From IMG/VR virus record IMGVR_UViG_3300025118_000169, positions 1-22,610 of that record: a stretch of 22,610 nucleotides of DNA, one strand, 5' to 3'. Below the pieces are notes generated by a model. It made no database searches. It saw nothing but the letters and a program-made list of their open reading frames with translations, and was not told the origin of the DNA. Shown here piece by piece: positions 5,319-17,776 of this stretch. The DNA comes from a virus. Position numbers and translations under genes: made by a program. The first letter of the stretch is position 1, and each line of letters starts with the position of its first letter.

Positions 5319-6951
5319 AGCTATTATTGACATAGAAACAGATGCTATTAATGCTACAAAAATACATTGCATTGTTGCAAGATCTCTTACCTCAAACAAA
5401 GAGAAGGTATGGATTGAAGATGAGTGTCAACAGTTTGCAGAATGGTCTAAACAAATAGATGAGTTTATTATGCATAATGGCGTGAGCTTTGATGCACCCA
5501 TATTAAATAGATTAACTGGTTCAAGTATAAAGCTCTCTCAGGTTAGAGATACTCTGATTGAATCACAATTATATAATCCTATCAGAGAGGGAGGACATTC
5601 TCTGGGAGCATGGGGAGAAAGATTAAACTTTCCGAAAGGAGAATGTAATGATTTTAAATTTTATACAGAAGATATGCTCTCTTATTGTAAGAGGGATACA
5701 GAAATTACTGGACGATTGGCTAATACTTTATCAGTTGAAGGCAAGAACTTTTCACAAAGATCCTACGAACTCGAAAGAAAAGTCAGAGCAATAGTAGATC
5801 AGCAGGAGATAAATGGATTTGCTTTTAATATTAAAGAAGCTATGATGTTTCTATCTAAACTAGAGGATGAACAACATCAACTGGAACGTGAAGCAGAAGA
5901 TATGTTTGAACCTATTATAACTTACTCTCCTGTAAAGAAAATACCAAAGAGTACTCCTTTTAATATTGCCAGTAGGAAACAAATAGCAGAACGGCTGATT
6001 GAGAGAGGGTGGAAGCCTACTCATAAGACTGAAAAAGGTAATGTAATTGTATCAGAAGAAATACTTTCCAAGTTAAAGATGCCAGAAGCACAGATGTTTA
6101 GTCGATACTTTCTATTACAAAAACGTACTGGTCTACTCAAGTCTTGGATACAAGAGTGTGAGGAGGATGGTCGAGTACGAGGCAGAGTCATGACCCTACG
6201 TACTGTTACTGGTAGGATGGCACACAACAGTCCTAACATGGCTCAAGTACCAGCTACCTATAGTCCTTATGGTAAGGAGTGTCGAGAGCTATGGACAGTA
6301 TCTAATCCCGATACTCATGTGCTTGTAGGAACTGATGCCAGTGGTCTGGAGCTACGTTGTCTGGCTCATTATATGGATTGGCCTGACTACACTAATGAAG
6401 TTGTTAATGGTGATATACATACAGCTAACATGAAGGCTGCTGGATTAACCAACAGAGATCAAGCAAAAACTTTCATCTATGCCTTTCTTTATGGGGCCGG
6501 ACCTGCTAAAATAGGTAAGGTAGTAGGAGGTAATGCCAGAGTAGGGCAACTACTAACCAGTAAGTTCCTATCTAATATGCCAAAGCTTAAAATATTAAGA
6601 GATAATGTTACCGAAGCTGCTGAGACAGGAACAATCAAAGCTCTGGATGGAAGGAGACTACACATCAGATCACCTCATGCCAGCCTTAACACCCTTCTTC
6701 AAGGAGCAGGAGCTATCGTATGTAAACAATGGCTGGTTCATATGGACGAACACATTAGAAAGGCAGGAGTAGATGTTAAACTTGTAGCCTCAGTCCATGA
6801 TGAGTATCAATTTGAAGTAGCCAAGCAAGATGTAGAAACATTTGGAAGTATAACCAAGAAATCCATAAAAGAAGCTCAAGAAACTTTAGGTATGAAGTGT
6901 TCTCTAGATTGTGAATATAAGGTAGGAAATACATGGTCAGATACACACTAA
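5311..6951 (+). CDS. T7-like family A DNA polymerase with 3'-5' exonuclease
   Basis: This 546-residue polymerase copies the phage genome. Exonuclease motifs are Exo I (Asp7, Glu9), Exo II (HNGVSFD, Asn56 and Asp61) and Exo III (YCKRD, Asp129). Polymerase motifs are TGRMAHNSPNMAQVP near 300-314, motif A TDASGLELR with Asp342, the O-helix RDQAKTFIYAFLYG at 382-395, and motif C VHDE at 495-498. The residue matching E. coli Phe762 is Tyr390, as in T7. It is about 160 residues shorter than T7 gp5 (704), with a brief segment between the exonuclease and palm, so the thioredoxin-binding loop is probably missing. The start at 5311 has GGAG at the right distance. All catalytic residues appear present. 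Confidence 0.96.
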   Translation: MTKAIIDIETDAINATKIHCIVARSLTSNKEKVWIEDECQQFAEWSKQIDEFIMHNGVSFDAPILNRLTGSSIKLSQVRDTLIESQLYNPIREGGHSLGAWGERLNFPKGECNDFKFYTEDMLSYCKRDTEITGRLANTLSVEGKNFSQRSYELERKVRAIVDQQEINGFAFNIKEAMMFLSKLEDEQHQLEREAEDMFEPIITYSPVKKIPKSTPFNIASRKQIAERLIERGWKPTHKTEKGNVIVSEEILSKLKMPEAQMFSRYFLLQKRTGLLKSWIQECEEDGRVRGRVMTLRTVTGRMAHNSPNMAQVPATYSPYGKECRELWTVSNPDTHVLVGTDASGLELRCLAHYMDWPDYTNEVVNGDIHTANMKAAGLTNRDQAKTFIYAFLYGAGPAKIGKVVGGNARVGQLLTSKFLSNMPKLKILRDNVTEAAETGTIKALDGRRLHIRSPHASLNTLLQGAGAIVCKQWLVHMDEHIRKAGVDVKLVASVHDEYQFEVAKQDVETFGSITKKSIKEAQETLGMKCSLDCEYKVGNTWSDTH

Positions 6952-7643
6952 TATTCTTTCTAATACTTTTATCTTTTCTAGTATTCTTTGTAATACTTTT
7001 ATCTTTTCCCTTACATGCTAATGAAAAAGCAGGTATGGTACTAGATAGAGAAGGGAATGTTACTCTTGTTAGACAACAAAGATCTATACAACTTTCTGAA
7101 AAAGATTGGTTATATAAAGATGATCGAATCCTAACAGGAAGAAGTTCTTCTGTTGAAATTAAATTAATAGATGGCTCTCTTGTTAATGTAGGAGAGCTAG
7201 GAGATGTTTATCTTTTAGATCTTGTATATGATCCTATAAAGAAAGATGGTTTTATAGATCTTAAAATAGCTACTGGTGCATTTAGAATGGTGAGTGGTAG
7301 TATAGCAAAGCTAGGGCCAGACCTTATGATACTTCAAATACCTACAGCTACAGTCGGCATTCGAGGAACAGGTATTATAGGTAAAGCCAGTAAGGTCGGG
7401 ATCGAAAACTTTGTGATCTTAGTTCCTGATCCTGATGGACACATTGGAGAACTGGTAGTGAAGAATACTGAAGGTATTGTTATCTTACGTAAGGCTAATG
7501 AAGGTGTAACCATGATATATCCTGATAGAAAATTAGCTAAGAAAAAATATACAAAGAAGTTTATTCAAAATCTTATTAAGCAGGTTCCTAAATTTAATTC
7601 TTTACATACTAAACAATTTAAATCTTTATTCTGGTTAAATTAA
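6933..7643 (+). CDS. Secreted FecR-domain protein, 236 aa
   Basis: A long hydrophobic signal sequence (residues 6-25) ends in LHANE, with a likely cut near 29. The mature part resembles the FecR domain: GMVLDREGNVTLVRQQ at 34-49, DDRILTGRSSSVEIKLIDGS at 63-82, then IPTATVGIRGTG at 136-147, a signature often seen in stand-alone FecR proteins. FecR is a periplasmic regulator of an iron-uptake sigma factor, but the domain also occurs in many surface proteins of unknown role. No anti-sigma region is present here. The gene overlaps the polymerase end by 19 bases, an odd site for an exported protein. Envelope remodelling or superinfection exclusion are possible. Domain call is fairly sure; role is unknown. 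Confidence 0.75.
   Translation: MVRYTLIFFLILLSFLVFFVILLSFPLHANEKAGMVLDREGNVTLVRQQRSIQLSEKDWLYKDDRILTGRSSSVEIKLIDGSLVNVGELGDVYLLDLVYDPIKKDGFIDLKIATGAFRMVSGSIAKLGPDLMILQIPTATVGIRGTGIIGKASKVGIENFVILVPDPDGHIGELVVKNTEGIVILRKANEGVTMIYPDRKLAKKKYTKKFIQNLIKQVPKFNSLHTKQFKSLFWLN
6952..7008 (+). repeat. 30-bp tandem duplication in the FecR-protein signal sequence
   Basis: Bases 6952-6978 and 6982-7008 match at 26 of 27 positions with a 30-base period. In the protein this doubles a ten-residue hydrophobic block (LIFFLILLSF then LVFFVILLSF). The period is a multiple of three, so the frame is kept, and the single difference is C to G. It looks like a slippage duplication kept by the gene. Confidence 0.85.
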
Positions 7644-8130: not shown

Positions 8131-8159
8131 TTGACACTTATTTATATCCATGATATAAT
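8131..8159 (+). promoter_or_regulatory. Perfect sigma-70 promoter for the SSB gene
   Basis: TTGACA at 8131-8136 and TATAAT at 8154-8159 match the consensus at all 12 positions, with the ideal 17-base spacer. TGA before the -10 adds an extended -10 element (TGN). Transcription should begin near 8166. The site lies just after the stop at 8121 and points at the single-strand binding protein. Confidence 0.93.
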
Positions 8160-10342: not shown

Positions 10343-10622
10343 CCAAGACCCTTTACATAATCAGATAGGTGGTAATCATTATAAAGAATGTAGTATTCAA
10401 CCCGTAGAATATATTCATGCAAATAATCTTGATTATCTAGAAGGCAATGTAATAAAATATATTACCAGACACAGAACTAAAGGAGATGGAAAGAAAGATG
10501 TAGAGAAAGCTATACATTATGCTCAGTTAATAATTAAACTTCATTATCCTGATGAGGAAAAACAAGCAGATCTATTTAATGATTTAATAGAGAGGGGCAA
10601 ACATGTTCAAGTCAAATCGTAA
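10308..10622 (+). CDS. DUF3310 protein (T7 gp1.7-like nucleotide kinase family)
   Basis: The central pattern IGGNHYKECSIQPVEYI at residues 20-36, followed by GNVIKYITRHRTKGDGKKD and KAIHYAQLIIK, is the hallmark of DUF3310. T7 gp1.7, reported to phosphorylate dTMP and dGMP, belongs to this family as I recall. It would therefore feed dNTP synthesis, which fits its position: the gene overlaps the ribonucleotide reductase by 20 bases. The length (104 aa) is close to a bare family domain and shorter than T7 gp1.7 (196). AGGAG is placed about ten bases before the ATG. The domain is clear; kinase activity is inferred from the family. Confidence 0.82.
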   Translation: MSEEDLVHLSIDQDPLHNQIGGNHYKECSIQPVEYIHANNLDYLEGNVIKYITRHRTKGDGKKDVEKAIHYAQLIIKLHYPDEEKQADLFNDLIERGKHVQVKS

Positions 10623-12279
10623 TCCACAATTCAGATCGAAGTTTAGTGAAGATATATTTTATACTAAGTATTCTCATGAAGGTGCAGAAACATTTCATGA
10701 ATTGGCTTGCACATTGGTAGAGGATGTCTGCCAAGATAAGATAACCAAGGATGAAAAAGAATCTTTAATAGATCATATATCTAATCTAAGGTTTATTCCC
10801 GGTGGCCGTTATCTTTATTATGCAGGAAGGGAAAAGAAGTTCTTTAATAATTGTTACCTTCTTAAAGCAGAGGAAGATACCAGAGAAGATTGGGCTAACC
10901 TATCTTGGAAGTCTGAGTCCTGTCTTATGACAGGTGGTGGTATTGGTATAGATTATTCTACTTATAGATCTGAAGGACAAACTCTGAAAGGAACAGGAGG
11001 TATAGCTTCTGGCCCGATACCTAAGATGCAGATGATTAACTCCATAGGTCAGAAGGTAATGCAAGGAGGCTCAAGAAGATCTGCTATTTATGCTTCTCTT
11101 AATTGGAAACATGAAGATATAGATAAATTTTTGGTAACAAAGAACTGGTTTGATATGCCAGTAGGAAATACAGGTAAGACTTTGTTTGATATTAAACAAG
11201 ATGATTTTAATTTTCCTGCACCCCTAGACATGACTAATATCAGTGTAAACTATGATACCGAATGGTTACTTAATTATTGGGAGAAAGGAGAAATAGGAGA
11301 TGTCTTTAGGACTAATGTACGTCAAGCTCTTAGAACAGGTGAACCGGGCTTCTCGTTTAACTTCTTTGAGAAGGAAAATGAAACACTCAGGAATGCTTGT
11401 ACCGAAGTTACGAGTGAAGATGATAGTGATGTTTGTAATCTTGGTAGCCTTAACTTTGCTCGTATTGATGACCTTAACCAGTTGCAAGAGGTCGTTGAAC
11501 TTGCCACTAAATTTCTATTGTGTGGAACACTCAGAGCGCAGCTTCCCTACGAAAAGGTGTATCAGGTTCGAGATTCCAATAGACGTTTAGGACTTGGCCT
11601 GATGGGGCTACATGAATGGCTTATTCAACGAGGACATAGGTATGAGACTACACCAGAATTACATAGATGGTTTAAAGTCTATGAAGCAGAGAGTGATAAG
11701 GTTGCTCGTAGTTTTTCCAAGAAACTAAATATCTCTGAACCTATTGCTGTCAGGGCTGTAGCTCCTACTGGTACGATAGGAATACTGGGTGGTACATCTA
11801 CTGGAGTAGAGCCTATCTTTGCTGTAGCTTATAAACGTAGGTATTTAAAGAATAAAAGGTGGCATTACCAATACGTTGTTGATAGTGCTGCTCAAGAAAT
11901 GATAGAACTTTATGGAGTTAAACCTGACAGTATTGACTCTGCCCTTGATCTGGTTACTGATTATGAGAGAAGGTTAAACTTTCAAGCTAATGTACAGGAG
12001 TATGTGGATATGTCTATCTCCAGTACAATTAATTTACCAGCATGGGATACTGAAGATAATAATGAAGGTAAGATAGAAGACTTTGCTCAGACCTTGGCTA
12101 AGTATTCTCATAGACTTAGAGGATTTACTTGTTATCCCGATGGATGTCGAGGTGGACAGCCTCTTACCAGAGTTCCTTATGCTGAAGCTATGGATAAATT
12201 AGGTGAAGAATTTGAAGATAACATACAAGCTCATGACATCTGTGAAATCAGTAATGCAGGTGGAACTTGTGGAGTTTAA
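10603..12279 (+). CDS. Class II (adenosylcobalamin-dependent) ribonucleotide reductase
   Basis: This 558-residue enzyme turns ribonucleotides into deoxyribonucleotides. The conserved parts are NNCYLL with Cys84, GGGIGIDYS at 111-119, the active-site loop NACTE (Asn264, Cys266, Glu268), DVCNLGS with Cys278, and the P-TGT-stretch VAPTGTIGILGGTSTGVEP at 386-404. The C-terminal Cys pair (Cys547, Cys556) fits the thiol shuttle. No separate small subunit gene is seen and there is no N-terminal ATP cone. These point to a B12-dependent class II enzyme, like those of many marine podoviruses, rather than a class I large subunit, though a class I relationship cannot be fully excluded by eye. The host must supply or import cobalamin. 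Confidence 0.9.
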   Translation: MFKSNRNPQFRSKFSEDIFYTKYSHEGAETFHELACTLVEDVCQDKITKDEKESLIDHISNLRFIPGGRYLYYAGREKKFFNNCYLLKAEEDTREDWANLSWKSESCLMTGGGIGIDYSTYRSEGQTLKGTGGIASGPIPKMQMINSIGQKVMQGGSRRSAIYASLNWKHEDIDKFLVTKNWFDMPVGNTGKTLFDIKQDDFNFPAPLDMTNISVNYDTEWLLNYWEKGEIGDVFRTNVRQALRTGEPGFSFNFFEKENETLRNACTEVTSEDDSDVCNLGSLNFARIDDLNQLQEVVELATKFLLCGTLRAQLPYEKVYQVRDSNRRLGLGLMGLHEWLIQRGHRYETTPELHRWFKVYEAESDKVARSFSKKLNISEPIAVRAVAPTGTIGILGGTSTGVEPIFAVAYKRRYLKNKRWHYQYVVDSAAQEMIELYGVKPDSIDSALDLVTDYERRLNFQANVQEYVDMSISSTINLPAWDTEDNNEGKIEDFAQTLAKYSHRLRGFTCYPDGCRGGQPLTRVPYAEAMDKLGEEFEDNIQAHDICEISNAGGTCGV

Positions 12280-12280
12280 T

Positions 12281-12397
12281 ATGGCAAAGCAAAAAAATCA
12301 TAATGGAAAGATGTCACATTGTACAAATAAAAAACCAAGAGATCCTGAAGCTATTAAAATATGGAAAAAAAGACTTGACAAAAACCATAAAATGTAG
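12281..12397 (+). CDS. Small basic protein, 38 aa
   Basis: GGAG at 12271-12274, inside the reductase end, is six bases before this ATG. The 38 residues are rich in Lys and His (MAKQKNHNGKMSHCTNKK, then RLDKNHKM) and have a net positive charge. They could bind nucleic acid, but no family is recognised. The 3' end contains the whole -35 box and spacer of the Hsp20 promoter, so the gene may be kept partly as a promoter carrier. Confidence 0.5.
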   Translation: MAKQKNHNGKMSHCTNKKPRDPEAIKIWKKRLDKNHKM

Positions 12398-12403
12398 TAT
12401 AAT
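12375..12403 (+). promoter_or_regulatory. Perfect sigma-70 promoter for the Hsp20 gene
   Basis: TTGACA at 12375-12380 and TATAAT at 12398-12403 match the consensus at all 12 positions with a 17-base spacer. The -35 and spacer lie within the end of the 38-aa gene. Transcription should start near 12410, at the base of a hairpin, and read into the Hsp20 gene. It is the second perfect promoter in the window with the same geometry. Confidence 0.92.
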
Positions 12404-12461: not shown

Positions 12462-12908
12462 ATGAATGTAAGACTAGAAGGTAATTGGAAATTCCTTAAT
12501 ATGCCCTCTCTTGTAAATTTTGAGAGAAGAGCTATAGGTTATGATAGGTTATTTCAACAACTGATGGAGATGCCTGAAAAAGATAATCAAAGTTATCCAC
12601 CTCATAACCTGATTAAGGAATCAGACACAGAGTTCAAGATTGAATTAGCTTTAGCTGGCTTTACAAAGGAAGAAGTTAAAGTGGTTCAGGAAGAACAGAC
12701 ATTAACCATAAGTGGAAACAACTCTGAGAAGGAGGGCAACGAAAACATTCTACATAAAGGCATAGCAAGTAGAGCTTTTACAAAGACATTTGATCTTGCT
12801 GATAATATTGAAGTCACAGAAGCATCGTTTGAAAATGGGATGGTTATCATCAAGCTCAGACAGGATATTCCAGAAGATAAAATGCCAAAGCTCATTGAAT
12901 TTAAATAA
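12462..12908 (+). CDS. Hsp20 / alpha-crystallin small heat-shock protein
   Basis: This 148-residue protein looks like the IbpA type of small heat-shock protein. After an N-terminal arm of about 45 residues (with RLFQQLMEMP), the alpha-crystallin domain runs from YPPHNLIKESDTEFKIELAL through FTKEEVKVV, LTISG and RAFTKTFDLADNIEV to ASFENGMVIIKL. A short tail (KLIEF) may hold an I-x-I/V-like anchor. Such proteins hold unfolding proteins in solution and are found in cyanophages and some other marine phages, perhaps to aid capsid assembly or protect the host cell. It has its own perfect promoter, leader hairpins and terminator, so it is expected to be made at a high level and apart from its neighbours. 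Confidence 0.93.
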   Translation: MNVRLEGNWKFLNMPSLVNFERRAIGYDRLFQQLMEMPEKDNQSYPPHNLIKESDTEFKIELALAGFTKEEVKVVQEEQTLTISGNNSEKEGNENILHKGIASRAFTKTFDLADNIEVTEASFENGMVIIKLRQDIPEDKMPKLIEFK

Positions 12909-12914
12909 GAAGAT

Positions 12915-12975
12915 GGGAAGGTGAACAACAGGTTTAAGGAAGAATCAGATACCTGTATGGTTGCCTTCCCTTTTT
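12915..12975 (+). terminator. Intrinsic terminator after Hsp20
   Basis: GGGAAGG at 12915-12921 pairs with CCTTCCC at 12964-12970, followed by five T (12971-12975). An inner ACAGGT/ACCTGT stem (near 12928-12933 and 12950-12956) closes a large loop. The stem is interrupted and the T run short, so it may be leaky or act as an attenuator for the glycosyltransferase gene that starts 14 bases later. Confidence 0.75.
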
Positions 12976-12988
12976 ATAGGAGACTATT

Positions 12989-13750
12989 TTGAGAAAAGAT
13001 GAAAAAATAAATACAGTTTTTATAGGCTATGATCCCAAGGAAAAGTCTGCTTCTACTGTATTGAAATATATTATTGAGGCTAACTCTCCCAAACCTATTC
13101 ATGTTAAATTTCTTAGAAAAGATATTCTTGAATTGATGGGAATGCACTATAGACCTTATGAAATTGTCAATGAGCAGTACATAGATAAGATAGATCAACG
13201 TCCTTTCTCTACTGAATTTAGTTTTAGCAGATTTCTTATACCTGCTCTGATGATGTATGAAGGATGGGCTTTGTATATGGATTGTGATATGTACCCTCGA
13301 ATAGATATTAATGAAGTATTTGAAGAATATAATGATGACTTCTTTCCCCTCTATTGTGTTAAGCATAAGTATGAACCTCTCGATCAGTACAAGATGGATG
13401 GCAGAGAACAGACAACCTATCCTAGAAAGAACTGGTCAAGCTTTGTTCTTTGGAATTGTGGTCATAAATTAAATAGAAAGATAACTCCAATGGAAGTTAA
13501 CAATAAATCAGGATCTTATCTGCATCAGTTTAAGTGGTTGCCTGATAAGGATAGTGCTATAGGAACTATGCATGAGGAATGGAATTGGCTGGATGGTCAC
13601 TCTTCTGAAAAGATAGAACCAAAGAATGTACACTTTACAACAGGTGGGCCTTGGTTTAAAGAATGGAGTGTTAAGCGTCCTATTGATGGACAGTATGCAG
13701 CCGAATGGAATGTAGATTATTCTTACTTATTACTGAGAGATAAAATATGA
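12989..13750 (+). CDS. GT-A fold glycosyltransferase, GT8-like
   Basis: The fold is clear in outline: VFIGYDPKEKSAS at residues 10-22 is the nucleotide-binding start, and the metal site is YMDCDMYP with Asp98 and Asp100 (DxD). A later RKNWSSFVLWNC segment is common in GT8-like enzymes, and HFTTGGPW near the C-terminus fits the late conserved His. It probably moves a sugar from a nucleotide-sugar donor to a glycan, protein or modified base. The start is TTG at 12989, six bases after AGGAG; no other start lies near the conserved N-terminus. It overlaps the fused protein after it by four bases, so the two should act together. Acceptor unknown. Confidence 0.8.
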   Translation: MRKDEKINTVFIGYDPKEKSASTVLKYIIEANSPKPIHVKFLRKDILELMGMHYRPYEIVNEQYIDKIDQRPFSTEFSFSRFLIPALMMYEGWALYMDCDMYPRIDINEVFEEYNDDFFPLYCVKHKYEPLDQYKMDGREQTTYPRKNWSSFVLWNCGHKLNRKITPMEVNNKSGSYLHQFKWLPDKDSAIGTMHEEWNWLDGHSSEKIEPKNVHFTTGGPWFKEWSVKRPIDGQYAAEWNVDYSYLLLRDKI

Positions 13751-16128
13751 AGTATAAAATTGTTACAGCCTTTGATGAAAACTTTTTACAACACAGCACC
13801 ATTAATCTTCTTAATGAATTTAAGAATAATTGGGATAGTGCTTTAGAGTTTCATTGTTATTATCATGATCTGGATTTAAGTAATTACTCATTACCTAAGT
13901 CACCTAACATACACTATCATAATCTTATGGAGATAGAAGATTATTCAAAGTTTCTTAAAGCTTTTGCCAAGCATGATGGGACTGAAGGTAAAACAATTCA
14001 GTATAATGAAGCCCTTAATCCTATTAAGTTTATTCCCAAGGTTATGGCTTTAACCGAATGTGCTTTCGATCATAGTGGATGCTGGTTATTCTGGTTAGAT
14101 CCTAGTACTATTAATATTAAAACAATTAAAGAAAAAGATATTGATTCTTTATTTCCTGAAAGCTCAGAGAATGTAGATCTTATAACCATAAAAGATCAAA
14201 CATATATTATGGCTTTTAATTTAAGCAGACAAACTCCTGTTGATTTACTGGGAGATTTACGAGGAGCTTACACTTCAGGAGAATTTTCAAACTATCGAGA
14301 GTGGCATGATGTCTTTATTACAAATAGATTAAGAACTATCTATGAAGCTCATGGTATGAAAACACATGAAATAGATCTTGATAAATCTCCCCTCTCTGAA
14401 ATGATTGTCAGTCTGACTGATCGAAAGAACTTAGGAGTTAGAGATAAGGATGGTAATCGAGTTATTAAATTGTCGGATACTGAAACATCTCCTGACATAC
14501 TTCCTAATAGATACAAGCAACTGGCAGATATTATAAGGTTCTACAAGCCCAAGTGTATTCTAGAGACAGGTACATGGAATGGGGGCAGAGCTATAGAGAT
14601 GGCTCTTGCTTCTTTTAAACATAATGATTCAGTTCATTATATGGGATATGATCTCTTTGAAGATGCAACTGTAGATACTGACCATGAGGAGTTTAATGTT
14701 AAACCTCATAATACAATGGAAGCAGTTAGAAAAAGACTGAATGAATTTACAGAACATATGAAGGAGAAAGAAAATAAAACATTTACTTTTGAACTAACCA
14801 AGGGAAATGTTAGAGAAACACTCAAGAAATTAATTAAGACAGAGATAATTAGTGATGTTGACTTTGCTTTGATAGGTAGTGGTAATAGTAAGAAAACAGT
14901 AGAAGCAGAATATGATGTACTTAAATATGTTCCTGTTGTTGTAGCTGATCATTACTTTACCAAGGATGAGGATGACGAAGGGATTCCCCCTGAGAAATAT
15001 CAAGGAGTGAAGGATGTCTTTGCAACAGTCAAAACAAAAAAGGTTGATGCCCAAGAAACAACTGATGATGGTTGGACAACATTCGATGAGAAGTCCACTA
15101 CTAGAAAATATTTACTACCATCTGGTGACAAGGTTGCTGGTGGTGGTAATACTCATCTATGTATTTTCCTGCATGACAGTAAGCTAGAGGACATACCAGA
15201 GGATTTAAAGAGAGTACCTATTATCGTACACCCAAGAGATTGTGTACCAAAAGATTATATTAAAAATAATATTAAAGCTAACATGACCCTTATTAATCCT
15301 AAGAAATGGTTGACTAAACATCCCGGTCATAGAGGATCTGCTGCTGTTATTTCTGCTGGCCCTTATCTAGATTATAAAGAACTCAAGAAGTTTACCAAGG
15401 ATAATCCTGAGACTAGATTACTAGCTGTTAAACATGCTTATCCTAGTTTATTAGAACATGATATTAAACCTTGGGGATGTATTATACTTGATCCTCGTCC
15501 TATAACTGGTGTATCTACTCACAATATCGTAAGGAAAGATCTTCTGAAAAACATTGATCCCAATACCAGATTCTTTGTAGCTTCCATGACAGATCCTTCT
15601 GTAACAAACCATCTTATAGAAAACAAAGCTAAGATGTGGGGATGGCATGCCTTTACTGATTCACTCAGACAAGAGACAGAGCAAGGAACACAGATACATA
15701 ATCAACAGGTGAAGGTATCAGAGGATTTAGGCATTCCTCAAGGAGCTACTCTTATTACTGGTGGTACGTGTGCTGCCATGAGAGGCATAGGTGTCTTACA
15801 TACTTTAGGATTTAGGGACATCCATCTGTTTGGTTTTGATTGTTGTCGGGACGAACCTACCAAAGAAGAGAAGACTGAAACAACTGGAGATCTTGAAGGT
15901 GGAGAAGTTCCAAAGCCTAAGTATATGGCAGTTAATGTTGGAGAAAAGTCTTACTGGACTACTGGTGAACTTCTGGCAATGGCACAAGATTGTGAGAAAG
16001 TTTTTGCTGATGAAGGACTTGAAGGAGTTCTAACTTTTCATGGAGAAAATACAATGGTAGCTGATCTATGGGCTATTAATAAAGAGAGACAAACCAGACC
16101 AGATTTTGAAGGATATTATGATGACTAA
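13747..16128 (+). CDS. Three-part fusion: glycosyltransferase-like, methyltransferase-like, DUF115/Maf-like
   Basis: At 793 residues this is the largest complete protein here. Residues 1-215 look like a GT-A-type domain (IVTAFDENFLQHS, WLFWLDPSTI at 113-122), with a single Asp at 118 rather than DxD. Residues 245-430 look like a class I methyltransferase (ILETGTWNGGRA at 271-282, acidic end YDLFED at 301-306). Residues 525-700 match the DUF115/MptE-like group that includes the Maf flagellin glycosyltransferases: GSAAVISAGPY at 530-540, AVKHAYPSLLEH, LDPRP at 581-585 and GATLITGGTCAAMRG at 666-680, then HLFGFDCC. It lies between a glycosyltransferase and a methyltransferase. A role in making a methylated glycan on the virion or host surface is likely. 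Confidence 0.72.
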   Translation: MKYKIVTAFDENFLQHSTINLLNEFKNNWDSALEFHCYYHDLDLSNYSLPKSPNIHYHNLMEIEDYSKFLKAFAKHDGTEGKTIQYNEALNPIKFIPKVMALTECAFDHSGCWLFWLDPSTINIKTIKEKDIDSLFPESSENVDLITIKDQTYIMAFNLSRQTPVDLLGDLRGAYTSGEFSNYREWHDVFITNRLRTIYEAHGMKTHEIDLDKSPLSEMIVSLTDRKNLGVRDKDGNRVIKLSDTETSPDILPNRYKQLADIIRFYKPKCILETGTWNGGRAIEMALASFKHNDSVHYMGYDLFEDATVDTDHEEFNVKPHNTMEAVRKRLNEFTEHMKEKENKTFTFELTKGNVRETLKKLIKTEIISDVDFALIGSGNSKKTVEAEYDVLKYVPVVVADHYFTKDEDDEGIPPEKYQGVKDVFATVKTKKVDAQETTDDGWTTFDEKSTTRKYLLPSGDKVAGGGNTHLCIFLHDSKLEDIPEDLKRVPIIVHPRDCVPKDYIKNNIKANMTLINPKKWLTKHPGHRGSAAVISAGPYLDYKELKKFTKDNPETRLLAVKHAYPSLLEHDIKPWGCIILDPRPITGVSTHNIVRKDLLKNIDPNTRFFVASMTDPSVTNHLIENKAKMWGWHAFTDSLRQETEQGTQIHNQQVKVSEDLGIPQGATLITGGTCAAMRGIGVLHTLGFRDIHLFGFDCCRDEPTKEEKTETTGDLEGGEVPKPKYMAVNVGEKSYWTTGELLAMAQDCEKVFADEGLEGVLTFHGENTMVADLWAINKERQTRPDFEGYYDD

Positions 16129-16924
16129 TATAAAAGTAAAAGATATGCCAGAAGGATCACTTCCTACAGTAACAAGTTCAGGAGATATTGAAATACCAGA
16201 ATCATACCTTAAACCTATGGAACGTAAAGAGATAGGAGTTAACTTTCATTTAAATAGATCTCATCCTTCTGATAGATATAAGAAACTTCTGGAAGAATAT
16301 ATTCTGATGCATAGGGTGTCGGATGGAATGTTTAATGGAAGAAGTCTTGGAAAGTGGACTGACATTATTCATGGGTTTATAGATAAACTTGATTGTAAAA
16401 CTCTGCTTGATTATGGGTCAGGTAAAGGACATCTCTATACAGATAAGTTTAATACTATACTAGATGCTAATGGTTTGATTGTGTTGGATAAACCTCTCCC
16501 TGAGATCTGGACTAATTTGGAAAGTTACAGACTTTTTGATCCAGCTTATGAGGAGTTTCAGGAACTACCTGAAGGAAAGTTTGATGCTGTCATATCAACT
16601 GATGTGATGGAACATATACCAGAGACAGATCTATTATGGGTTATAGATGAGATACTAGGCTATGCTAATAAGATGGTCTTTCTTAATATAGCTTGCTTTC
16701 AAGCTGTTAAAACTTTAGCCGATGGTAGTAATGCTCATGTATCTGTTTTTCACCATCTTGATTGGCTGGAATTAATAGCTGCCAGATTTAATAATCATAA
16801 ACATTTATCTGTCTATGTTTTCTTTGATCTGTTTAATGCTGATGGTAAGATGGCAGAGAAAGGATTTAAAATCTCAATGGGAGAAAAAGATATACGTATA
16901 ATAGAACTACAAGAAATTAAGTAA
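16121..16924 (+). CDS. SAM-dependent methyltransferase, class I
   Basis: LLDYGSGKG at residues 95-103 is motif I of class I methyltransferases, with VLD at 121-123 as the next strand. DVMEHI at 161-166 is the post-motif Asp/His region seen in the type 11/12 sugar and small-molecule group. A 90-residue N-terminal extension precedes the core. The enzyme probably methylates a sugar or small molecule made with the two genes before it. The start was set at 16121 because AAGGA at 16109-16113 is seven bases upstream; 16118 is also in frame. The stop of the fused gene lies inside its first codons. Confidence 0.82.
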   Translation: MTNIKVKDMPEGSLPTVTSSGDIEIPESYLKPMERKEIGVNFHLNRSHPSDRYKKLLEEYILMHRVSDGMFNGRSLGKWTDIIHGFIDKLDCKTLLDYGSGKGHLYTDKFNTILDANGLIVLDKPLPEIWTNLESYRLFDPAYEEFQELPEGKFDAVISTDVMEHIPETDLLWVIDEILGYANKMVFLNIACFQAVKTLADGSNAHVSVFHHLDWLELIAARFNNHKHLSVYVFFDLFNADGKMAEKGFKISMGEKDIRIIELQEIK

Positions 16925-16936
16925 TAGGAGGATATT

Positions 16937-17341
16937 ATGTTAGGAATAGCTGAATCAGTAATCGGAGTAGCAGGAAAAGTCCTTGATAAATTTGTTGAGG
17001 ATAAAGATCTCAAGACAAAACTATCTCATGAGTTAAAGTCACAGATTGTAGCACTGGATCTGGCTCAAGCACGAACTAATCTGGAACAAGCTAAACATTC
17101 CAGTATCTTTGTGGCTGGTGCTAGACCTGCTATCATGTGGATATGTGCCTTTGGTCTGGGATGGCAGTTTGTCTTTCAACCTATAGCAGTATGGGGTATT
17201 GCTGTTAGTGGAGCAGACCTTGTTCTACCTGTCATTCAAACAGAAGGTCTTATGTCTTTAACTCTTGCTTTACTAGGTCTGGGTGGTATGAGAACTGCTG
17301 AGAAATGGAAAGGTGTACAAAGAAATAGTATGAAGAGATGA
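16937..17341 (+). CDS. GTA-type holin (three-TM holin, 134 aa)
   Basis: The order of features matches the GTA_holin_3TM family. An amphipathic helix and coiled-coil-like region (residues 9-55, KLSHELKSQIVALDLAQARTN) comes first. Then come AGARPAIMWICAFGLGWQFVF near 60-80, a second hydrophobic stretch, and LALLGLGGMRTAEKWKG near 110-126. Holins of this kind oligomerise in the inner membrane and make lesions that release the endolysin at a set time. An AGGAGG site at 16926-16931 gives strong initiation. It follows the methyltransferase by 12 bases. The M15 peptidase on the opposite strand is the probable endolysin partner. Confidence 0.85.
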   Translation: MLGIAESVIGVAGKVLDKFVEDKDLKTKLSHELKSQIVALDLAQARTNLEQAKHSSIFVAGARPAIMWICAFGLGWQFVFQPIAVWGIAVSGADLVLPVIQTEGLMSLTLALLGLGGMRTAEKWKGVQRNSMKR

Positions 17342-17454
17342 TTAAGTGGCTCTATAAATTACAGTGGAGGTTTTGTATTTGGTTAAATAAAATACTTAGT
17401 GGTAAAGCAGAACCTAAATATTTATCTGGTAGAAAACATGATAAAGATAACTGA
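17338..17454 (+). CDS. Small basic protein, 38 aa
   Basis: The ATG overlaps the holin stop (ATGA). The peptide has a Trp-, Leu- and Lys-rich first half (MIKWLYKLQWRFCIWLNKIL) that could form an amphipathic helix on the membrane, and a charged second half. It overlaps the HesB-like gene by 17 bases. Its place behind the holin would suit an antiholin or a lysis helper, but there is no direct sign of that. Confidence 0.5.
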   Translation: MIKWLYKLQWRFCIWLNKILSGKAEPKYLSGRKHDKDN

Positions 17455-17776
17455 CAATGCAGATATACATCTCTCTTCTATAGTAGCTGAGAATGAAGTA
17501 GCTGGTGTTAAGCTAGCTGTCAATAGTGGAGGATGTTCAGGTTTTACTTATGATTGGCAGTTAGTAACCGAAGAAGAAATGATAGATATTATTGATGATT
17601 ATATTATAGATCTTGACACAGGTAAACTATTTATAGATAATCTTTCTGTTATGTATATAGCTGGTATGGTTGTCGATTACAAGAAAGATATTTTTGGTCA
17701 AAGATTAATGATTGATAATCCTAATGTCGAGTCCATGTGTGGATGTGGAGAAAGTTTTCAATTTAATGTGGGGTAA
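17438..17776 (+). CDS. HesB/IscA-like A-type iron-sulfur carrier, 112 aa
   Basis: The protein matches A-type carriers of iron-sulfur clusters. GVKLAVNSGGCSGFTYDW at residues 23-40 holds Cys33, and the C-terminal CGCGESF holds Cys101 and Cys103. These are the three Cys that bind the cluster or iron in IscA. The middle (LFIDNLSVMYIAGMVVDY at 64-81) also fits. Length is typical (about 107). Such genes occur in marine cyanophages and related viruses, where they may help load clusters into phage or host enzymes during infection. The start at 17438 was chosen over an upstream in-frame start because the extra residues are not conserved. It sits between the holin and terminase genes, with no other iron-sulfur gene next to it. 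Confidence 0.9.
   Translation: MIKITDNADIHLSSIVAENEVAGVKLAVNSGGCSGFTYDWQLVTEEEMIDIIDDYIIDLDTGKLFIDNLSVMYIAGMVVDYKKDIFGQRLMIDNPNVESMCGCGESFQFNVG
17613..17641 (+). promoter_or_regulatory. Possible internal promoter in the HesB-like gene
   Basis: TTGACA at 17613-17618 and GATAAT at 17636-17641 are 17 bases apart, 11 of 12 matches to the sigma-70 consensus. It lies within coding sequence in the codons for LDTGKLFIDN, so a chance match in AT-rich DNA is possible. If active it would drive the genes from 17781 to the small terminase. Confidence 0.35.

Follow-up and report, generated by a model that had tools for sequence, protein, structure and literature searches.

What do three overlapping genes of an uncultured marine phage make, and to what is their product attached? 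The genes, here called open reading frames (ORFs) A, B and C, lie at 12989..16924 on the plus strand of IMG/VR virus record IMGVR_UViG_3300025118_000169. The window analysed is this full record of 22,610 bases, which covers part of a T7-like phage genome. The carriers of the cassette are a large uncultured marine podovirus-like clade. The usual reading of phage glycosyltransferases (GTs) is that they act on DNA or on host lipopolysaccharide (LPS). In this case it is very probable that A-B-C is involved in glycan chemistry. Our preferred reading, to which we give a probability of about 0.45, is that it is a cytoplasmic cassette that builds and methylates a glycan, with a phage virion protein as its likeliest target. 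As far as the open literature shows, A-B-C has not been described as a system; the kinds of enzyme that compose it are known.

The three genes and their domains

A first description of this locus, made from the bases alone (the sequence-only reading), listed ORFs of 253, 793 and 272 aa that overlap by a few bases each. Both the ORFs and the overlaps stand. In random sequence of equal composition stop-free runs reach at most 159 codons, far below these lengths. A and B overlap by 4 bp (ATGA) in the window; most relatives have an overlap of 11 bp here. Between B and C the overlap is 23 bp when counted from a TTG at 16106, and 8–11 bp from the ATG at 16118 or 16121, which is the likelier start of C because it is preceded by AAGGA. 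Segments of transmembrane-strength hydrophobicity are absent from A, B and C.

ORF B (13747..16128, plus strand, 793 aa) had been proposed to be a three-part fusion, and structure prediction together with the PF01973 profile bears this out. An AlphaFold2 model built from 42 clade sequences (mean predicted local distance difference test, pLDDT, 76.6) contains a GT-A fold, a class-I S-adenosylmethionine (SAM)-methyltransferase fold and a Maf/MptE-like domain. The frame is free of stops in those relatives that have it complete, and B is, as modelled, a true fusion of the three. A search of IMG/VR gave 439 relatives of B, of which 80, with 62–80% identity over the full length, were kept. With tblastn, B matched none of 50,697 phage records, blastn with part of B gave chance matches only, and a PDB sequence search with the B profile found only chance matches, to L-asparaginase.

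The third domain of B (aa 494–772, 15226..16062, plus strand) is its most conserved part. PF01973 matches it at aa 508–701 (E 1e-12, 48.6 bits against a cut-off of 34.6), and matches 42 of 42 relatives. The top PDB match over residues 247–772 is the Maf of Magnetospirillum (5mu5; Z 18.0 over 342 residues), with a root-mean-square deviation of 14 Å that results from a different placement of the two domains. Residues 494–766 match the archaeal MptE/HPPK structure 8sd5 (Z 14.3); the family also includes archaeal pterin pyrophosphokinase. The domain is a PF01973 member by both cut-off and fold. B is not called a Maf, since the linked pathway was not found. Maf proteins O-glycosylate flagellin with nonulosonic acids (PMC11339370), which agrees with the association drawn in the sequence-only reading. 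A nonulosonic donor is nevertheless unsupported here: a CMP (cytidine monophosphate)-sugar synthetase (PF02348) was not found in 13 long clade contigs, which may be incomplete and whose hosts may provide the donor, while a control search was positive in 11 of 14 genomes. Among open-licence papers nothing relevant was found on DUF115 or MptE in phages.

The middle domain (aa 245–479, 14479..15183, plus strand) has the class-I SAM-methyltransferase fold and is Methyltransf_24-like. Its structural matches are SafC (5lhm, Z 15.5), COMT and TrmR (Z about 14.5), and the TDP-rhamnose O-methyltransferase CalS11 (Z 14.3). The Methyltransf_24 profile matched 27 of 42 members below its cut-off, and one fusion, on contig L144, above it. 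The SAM-binding motif I (ETGTWNGGR, 14563..14589, plus strand) is strongly conserved, with E273, G275, W277, N278, G280 and R281 invariant in 58 representatives; it is eroded in a divergent group, L289–L292. By sequence alignment only, the metal-site Asp of the xDG motif after strand 4 has been lost in the clade fusions, which read IG[SG]GNS or IGGGDS there (IGSGNS in the window, 14872..14889, plus strand).

The N-terminal domain (aa 1–243, 13747..14475, plus strand) has a GT-A fold, and its structural matches are domain 1 of PBCV-1 A064R (2p6w, Z 14.0) and a metal-independent bacterial GT6 (4ayl, Z 13.8). At the former place of the DXD motif the window has Asp118-Pro-Ser (DPS, 14098..14106, plus strand). 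In an alignment of 58 representatives 22 have DXD, 27, including the window, have DPx, and nine have NXN. At least three changes at this site are required on a tree built without the GT columns.

ORF A (12989..13750, plus strand, 253 aa) starts with TTG, and AGGAG is found at 12978–12982, 6 nt upstream. It is best called GT8-like, and is predicted to be a retaining GT. The Pfam GT8 profile (Glyco_transf_8) matched 24 of 36 clade members of A (best E 1e-4), the window's own A being unmatched. A phage homologue of A with 42% identity clears the GT8 cut-off, and the homologue in Pelagibacter phage Mosig scores 30.9 bits against a cut-off of 24.3. A PDB sequence search gave a single weak GT8 match (E 0.17). 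The DXD site for metal and nucleotide sugar (DCD in the window, 13280..13288, plus strand) is intact in all 59 representatives, and a C-terminal HFTTGGPW is identical in all 59.

ORF C (16118..16924, plus strand, with an alternative TTG start at 16106; 272 aa as listed) is predicted to be a class-I SAM methyltransferase. It matches PHROG 24759, a methyltransferase family (E 8e-16), and falls just below the cut-off of Methyltransf_23 (E 5e-6, 26.8 bits against 27). Motif I, DYG[CSA]GK, is retained in 59 of 59 C representatives. The sequence-only reading had proposed a GT8-like enzyme for A and a methyltransferase for C.

Inheritance of the cassette

The three genes were expected to stay together in relatives, and with one exception they do. 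Moving outward from B, A was found upstream in 143 of 143 contigs and C downstream in 135 of 135 that reached far enough; many of these loci are near-duplicates, so that the counts are of contigs rather than of independent events. A search seeded with the exonuclease gene, which avoids a bias toward B, gave the same picture. The contigs that extended far enough carried A and then B, and those reaching at least about 7 kb carried A, B and C in order. This second sample consists of close kin with at least 76% identity, and therefore demonstrates fixation within the clade only.

The exception is L289–L292, in which C is absent, the fused SAM domain is degenerate, and the holin gene directly follows B. 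In two of these contigs a free-standing paralogue of the SAM domain is present upstream of the cassette, between the exonuclease and o10025 genes (L292:392-1060; L291:3-422). The copy in L292 has the canonical metal-type motif, LDGGHS...FDDYF, and clears the Methyltransf_24 cut-off.

Distances between pairs of B sequences track those of the exonuclease, with a Mantel r of 0.90, and those of C, with one of 0.91. Together with the strict order and the overlaps, the tracking of exonuclease distances suggests that the cassette is inherited vertically and has a fixed target, in contrast to the usual turnover of serotype genes. A fixed, vertically inherited cassette in abundant uncultured marine phages, with a parallel set in cultured phages of Caulobacter and Stenotrophomonas, makes its function a question that can be tested in the laboratory.

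Parallel sets and known systems

Profiles of A detect GT8-like genes in Mosig, Synechococcus phage S-SCSM2R, podovirus ctDrO704, the Caulobacter giant phages and Stenotrophomonas phage DLP6. These phages are unrelated to the clade; their sets often include a sialyltransferase-like gene and mostly adjoin genes for tail, capsid or lysis. With the C profile, a methyltransferase gene is detected next to the A homologue in Caulobacter phages C1, CcrSC, CcrPW and CcrColossus, in ctDrO704 and in DLP6. The profile does not match further methyltransferases encoded in these regions, such as two in Mosig. The gene before the A homologue in Mosig is a stand-alone homologue of the B GT domain (E 2e-15). 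In DLP6 a gene annotated as hypothetical (L165:6632-7423), which adjoins the GT8-like gene, is GT29 sialyltransferase-like (31.8 bits against a cut-off of 23). The set is located between the gene for a large tail protein and that for lysozyme in the Caulobacter phages, and in ctDrO704 the major capsid gene is a few genes away.

A close parallel is the block gp126–gp131 of CcrColossus and its relatives. It shares with the window homologues of A and C, which stand side by side in the block, and a PF01973-like gene, which lies upstream, three genes before the A homologue in CcrColossus. Unlike the window, these are separate genes without a fusion, accompanied by additional GT9-like and capsule-type genes. 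The PF01973-like gene scores 31.8 bits, and a DUF115-like gene of S20 18.3 bits, both under the cut-off of 34.6. A profile-profile comparison of these two genes with the B Maf domain was not significant, and homology to domain 3 of B is likely on the profile scores.

Among bacterial proteins, Maf 5mu5 has the same C-terminal fold as B. The SAM-fold domain of B is situated roughly where Maf has a degenerate Rossmann N-domain (PMC11339370). In contrast to Maf, B has an extra N-terminal GT-A domain, retains a SAM-binding motif in its middle domain, and is borne by a phage, with no flagellin nearby and no nonulosonic pathway found. Among viral proteins, the chlorovirus PBCV-1 has a three-domain GT-GT-MT (methyltransferase) protein, A064R, which with a separate methyltransferase, A061L, finishes the capsid glycan (PMC9614988). 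A064R and B are both three-domain viral proteins with the same GT-A fold in the first domain and a methyltransferase domain, and both are accompanied by a separate methyltransferase gene. They differ in domain order, which is GT-MT-Maf in B, in the DXD that is present in A064R-D1, and in that PBCV-1 is a eukaryotic virus. Protein A0A6J7X5Q0 from an uncultured Caudovirales phage (714 aa, BFVD) matches B structurally over 814 alignment columns, with template-modelling (TM) scores of 0.57/0.62 and 27% identity. It is annotated merely as a methyltransferase-domain protein; the predicted structures suggest that it likely has the three-domain architecture of B.

A possible pathway and its target

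The domains, motifs, gene order and co-inheritance are established; the activities, donors, order of transfer and target are inferred from family and motif, and may be pictured as follows. The Maf-type domain of B would attach a sugar to Ser or Thr of a phage protein. Since no CMP-sugar synthetase was found in the 13 long contigs, the donors must be supplied by the host. CMP-Kdo (Kdo, 3-deoxy-D-manno-octulosonic acid) or another CMP-ulosonic acid might serve; a Clostridium Maf accepts Kdo (PMC11339370). A, with its intact DXD, would then use a nucleotide sugar of the host to add a second sugar, and C would methylate the glycan. The first two domains of B, which in the window lineage have lost metal-site residues, may either work without metal, as do bacterial GT6 and A064R-D2, or hold the acceptor and the partner enzymes in place.

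Several observations favor a virion protein over the host envelope as target. The cassette is fixed in the clade, Maf-type proteins are protein transferases, the parallel sets lie near tail and capsid genes, and PBCV-1 provides a viral precedent. The consensus promoter upstream and the absence of transmembrane-strength segments also count in favor of the proposed cytoplasmic cassette. There are few reports of glycosylated structural proteins in phages, and in XacN1, a phage that encodes glycosyltransferases, virion glycoproteins were detected (PMC5852040). No argument about the target is decisive, and some findings weigh against a modified virion. The cassette is in the region from replication to lysis, outside the structural block, and the structural genes of the window are on the opposite strand. 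The resemblance of B to A064R is one of fold only, at about 10% identity. The AlphaFold2 model of A was poor (pLDDT 48.4), and no claim about its fold rests on it. In S-SCSM2R the A homologue is close to kdsB and kdsA, and in DSL-LC06 a C homologue occurs with heptosyltransferase-like and KpsC-like genes; envelope chemistry is thus also represented among the parallel neighborhoods.

Alternative explanations

The sequence-only reading implied three working enzymes in one chain. This is now doubtful, since the fused GT and methyltransferase domains have lost metal-site residues. Part of B may instead be a scaffold, in which the GT and SAM-fold domains are pseudoenzymes and catalysis is left to the Maf-type domain, A and C. 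This is a serious possibility, if somewhat short of even odds, and it fits either target. DXD has been lost in two lineages, and in the clade the SAM domain has Gly in place of the metal-site Asp. The fused SAM domain is degenerate in L289–L292, a group in which a canonical free copy exists. In Maf, too, the N-terminal domain is a degenerate Rossmann fold whose function is unclear (PMC11339370). On the other side, SAM motif I and the remainder of the GT domain are strongly conserved. Relative to DUF115, the divergence of the GT domain is 1.69 in lineages with DPx and 1.52 in those with DXD, which is no collapse. Both bacterial GT6 and A064R-D2 are active without metal; bacterial GT6 enzymes lack DXD, and the title of 4ayl agrees. 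Since the rest of the B GT domain is conserved, it is as possible that the domain no longer uses metal as that it is no longer active. In the window lineage the best candidates for catalysis, judged from conserved motifs, are the Maf-type domain, A and C.

A bolder proposal is that A-B-C is the first Maf-type protein-glycosylation system on phages, that it makes a methylated virion glycan, and that its SAM domain is losing catalysis and becoming a helper domain for the Maf-type transferase. We regard this combination as unlikely. If true, the helper role would account for the N-terminal domain of bacterial Maf, which is so far unexplained. The fusion bears on the role of the SAM-fold neighbor of Maf-type transferases in any case, with degenerate and canonical copies within one viral clade.

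The sequence-only reading had left the virion, the host surface and the phage DNA open as sites of a methylated glycan. Virion and host surface are both compatible with the present results. Modification of the host envelope, for which we see a smaller but still appreciable chance, would place a methylated sugar or a Kdo-like residue on the LPS core, the O-chain or a capsule precursor, and would block superinfection or change receptor use. GT8 enzymes are mainly enzymes of LPS synthesis, and CMP-Kdo, made by all Gram-negative bacteria, would be at hand as a host-derived donor. The GT8 genes of pelagimyophages have been read as envelope modifiers by others (PMC7029224), and the neighborhoods in S-SCSM2R and DSL-LC06 point the same way. 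However, neither the cassette nor its immediate neighborhood showed a membrane glucosyltransferase, a flippase or a lipid-carrier enzyme. The cassette is kept in every assessable close relative and tracks the replication genes, whereas surface-changing genes usually come and go, and Maf-type domains are known from protein glycosylation.

A role in nucleotide or pterin chemistry is highly improbable. Here the PF01973 domain would be an MptE-like pyrophosphokinase, and the fusion would serve cofactor or nucleotide synthesis next to the ribonucleotide reductase (RNR) gene just upstream, with the 8sd5 match in its favor. The Maf match covers more of B, and the partner genes, here and in unrelated phages, encode glycosyl- and methyltransferases rather than enzymes of pterin synthesis.

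Least probable of all is glycosylation or methylation of phage DNA as a defense against host nucleases, the classical association of phage glycosyltransferases and methyltransferases and one that the nearby DNA-metabolism genes would suit, because a thymidylate-synthase-type hydroxymethylase (PF00303) was not found in 12 long clade contigs, leaving no hydroxymethylated base for glucosylation by the T4-type hydroxymethylcytosine route, while the best methyltransferase-fold matches are small-molecule and sugar methyltransferases plus TrmR, which acts on tRNA, and we know of no DNA-modifying precedent for the Maf fold.

Genome setting and flanking features

Other genes of the window encode a primase-helicase, a family A DNA polymerase, a single-stranded DNA-binding (SSB)-like protein, an exonuclease, RNR, Hsp20, a holin and a small terminase (TerS). 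The nearest isolates by DNA polymerase are Pelagibacter phages HTVC103P, HTVC104P and HTVC115P, at 45% identity; A-B-C is absent from HTVC103P-type pelagiphages. These phages have metagenomic relatives without a cultured member, whose hosts are not known, designated group IV (PMC8528129), and it is plausible that the window falls within that group. A metagenome-assembled genome of Sneathiella (L094) was the sole match in a bacterial assembly, and was considered as a clue to the host. The contig is itself viral and also in IMG/VR, and thus says nothing firm on this point.

A perfect consensus sigma-70 promoter (TTGACA-17-TATAAT, 12 of 12 positions) is present at 12375..12403 on the plus strand, 87 bp before hsp20. 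In about 1.55 Mb of related loci 49 perfect matches were found on the plus strand. Of these, 32 lie in the 1 kb that precedes an A homologue, each at a different locus; this zone is less than one-tenth of the searched sequence. Near matches occur in 29 further loci (134 assessable), and near-duplicate loci inflate all of these counts. A second perfect consensus in the window, at 8131, falls at the start of the SSB-like ORF and suggests that the listed TTG start of that ORF is too early.

The first gene after the promoter is hsp20 (12462..12908, plus strand; PF00011 E 1e-15, PHROG 432 E 1e-38), a small heat-shock protein gene that precedes A in most relatives, though not in all, and is not clearly a member of the cassette. 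Between hsp20 and A there is a long hairpin followed by a U run (12913..12975, plus strand; −26.4 kcal/mol, z −3.55). A comparable hairpin is absent in the nearest relatives, L006, L007 and L009, and for this reason no role, such as attenuating entry to the cassette, is claimed for this window-specific element. On the other side the holin gene (16937..17341, plus strand; PF11351 E 4e-13) is next downstream in nearly all relatives, and marks the border of the cassette with the lysis and packaging genes.

Some minor features of the surrounding genes may be recorded. The gene at 6933-7643 encodes a protein that has a FecR domain and, near its N-terminus, a strong hydrophobic segment, which is unusual for a phage; a counterpart was not found in four long relatives. 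Many relatives have, at the syntenic place of the window's RNR gene (10603-12279), a non-orthologous RNR with 22–26% identity and unchanged flanking genes (L012–L014, L030, L055, L057, L060, L062, L066, L068, L289 and L292). In one relative a 2-oxoglutarate (2OG)-Fe(II) oxygenase gene lies between C and the holin gene (L093:5026-5616). The gene at 17399-17776 encodes an A-type Fe-S cluster carrier (TIGR00049, E 5e-26) and moves among relatives: it is upstream of the DNA polymerase gene in one (L094:127-450), and on the minus strand after TerS in L290–L292 (L292:8217-8543(-)).

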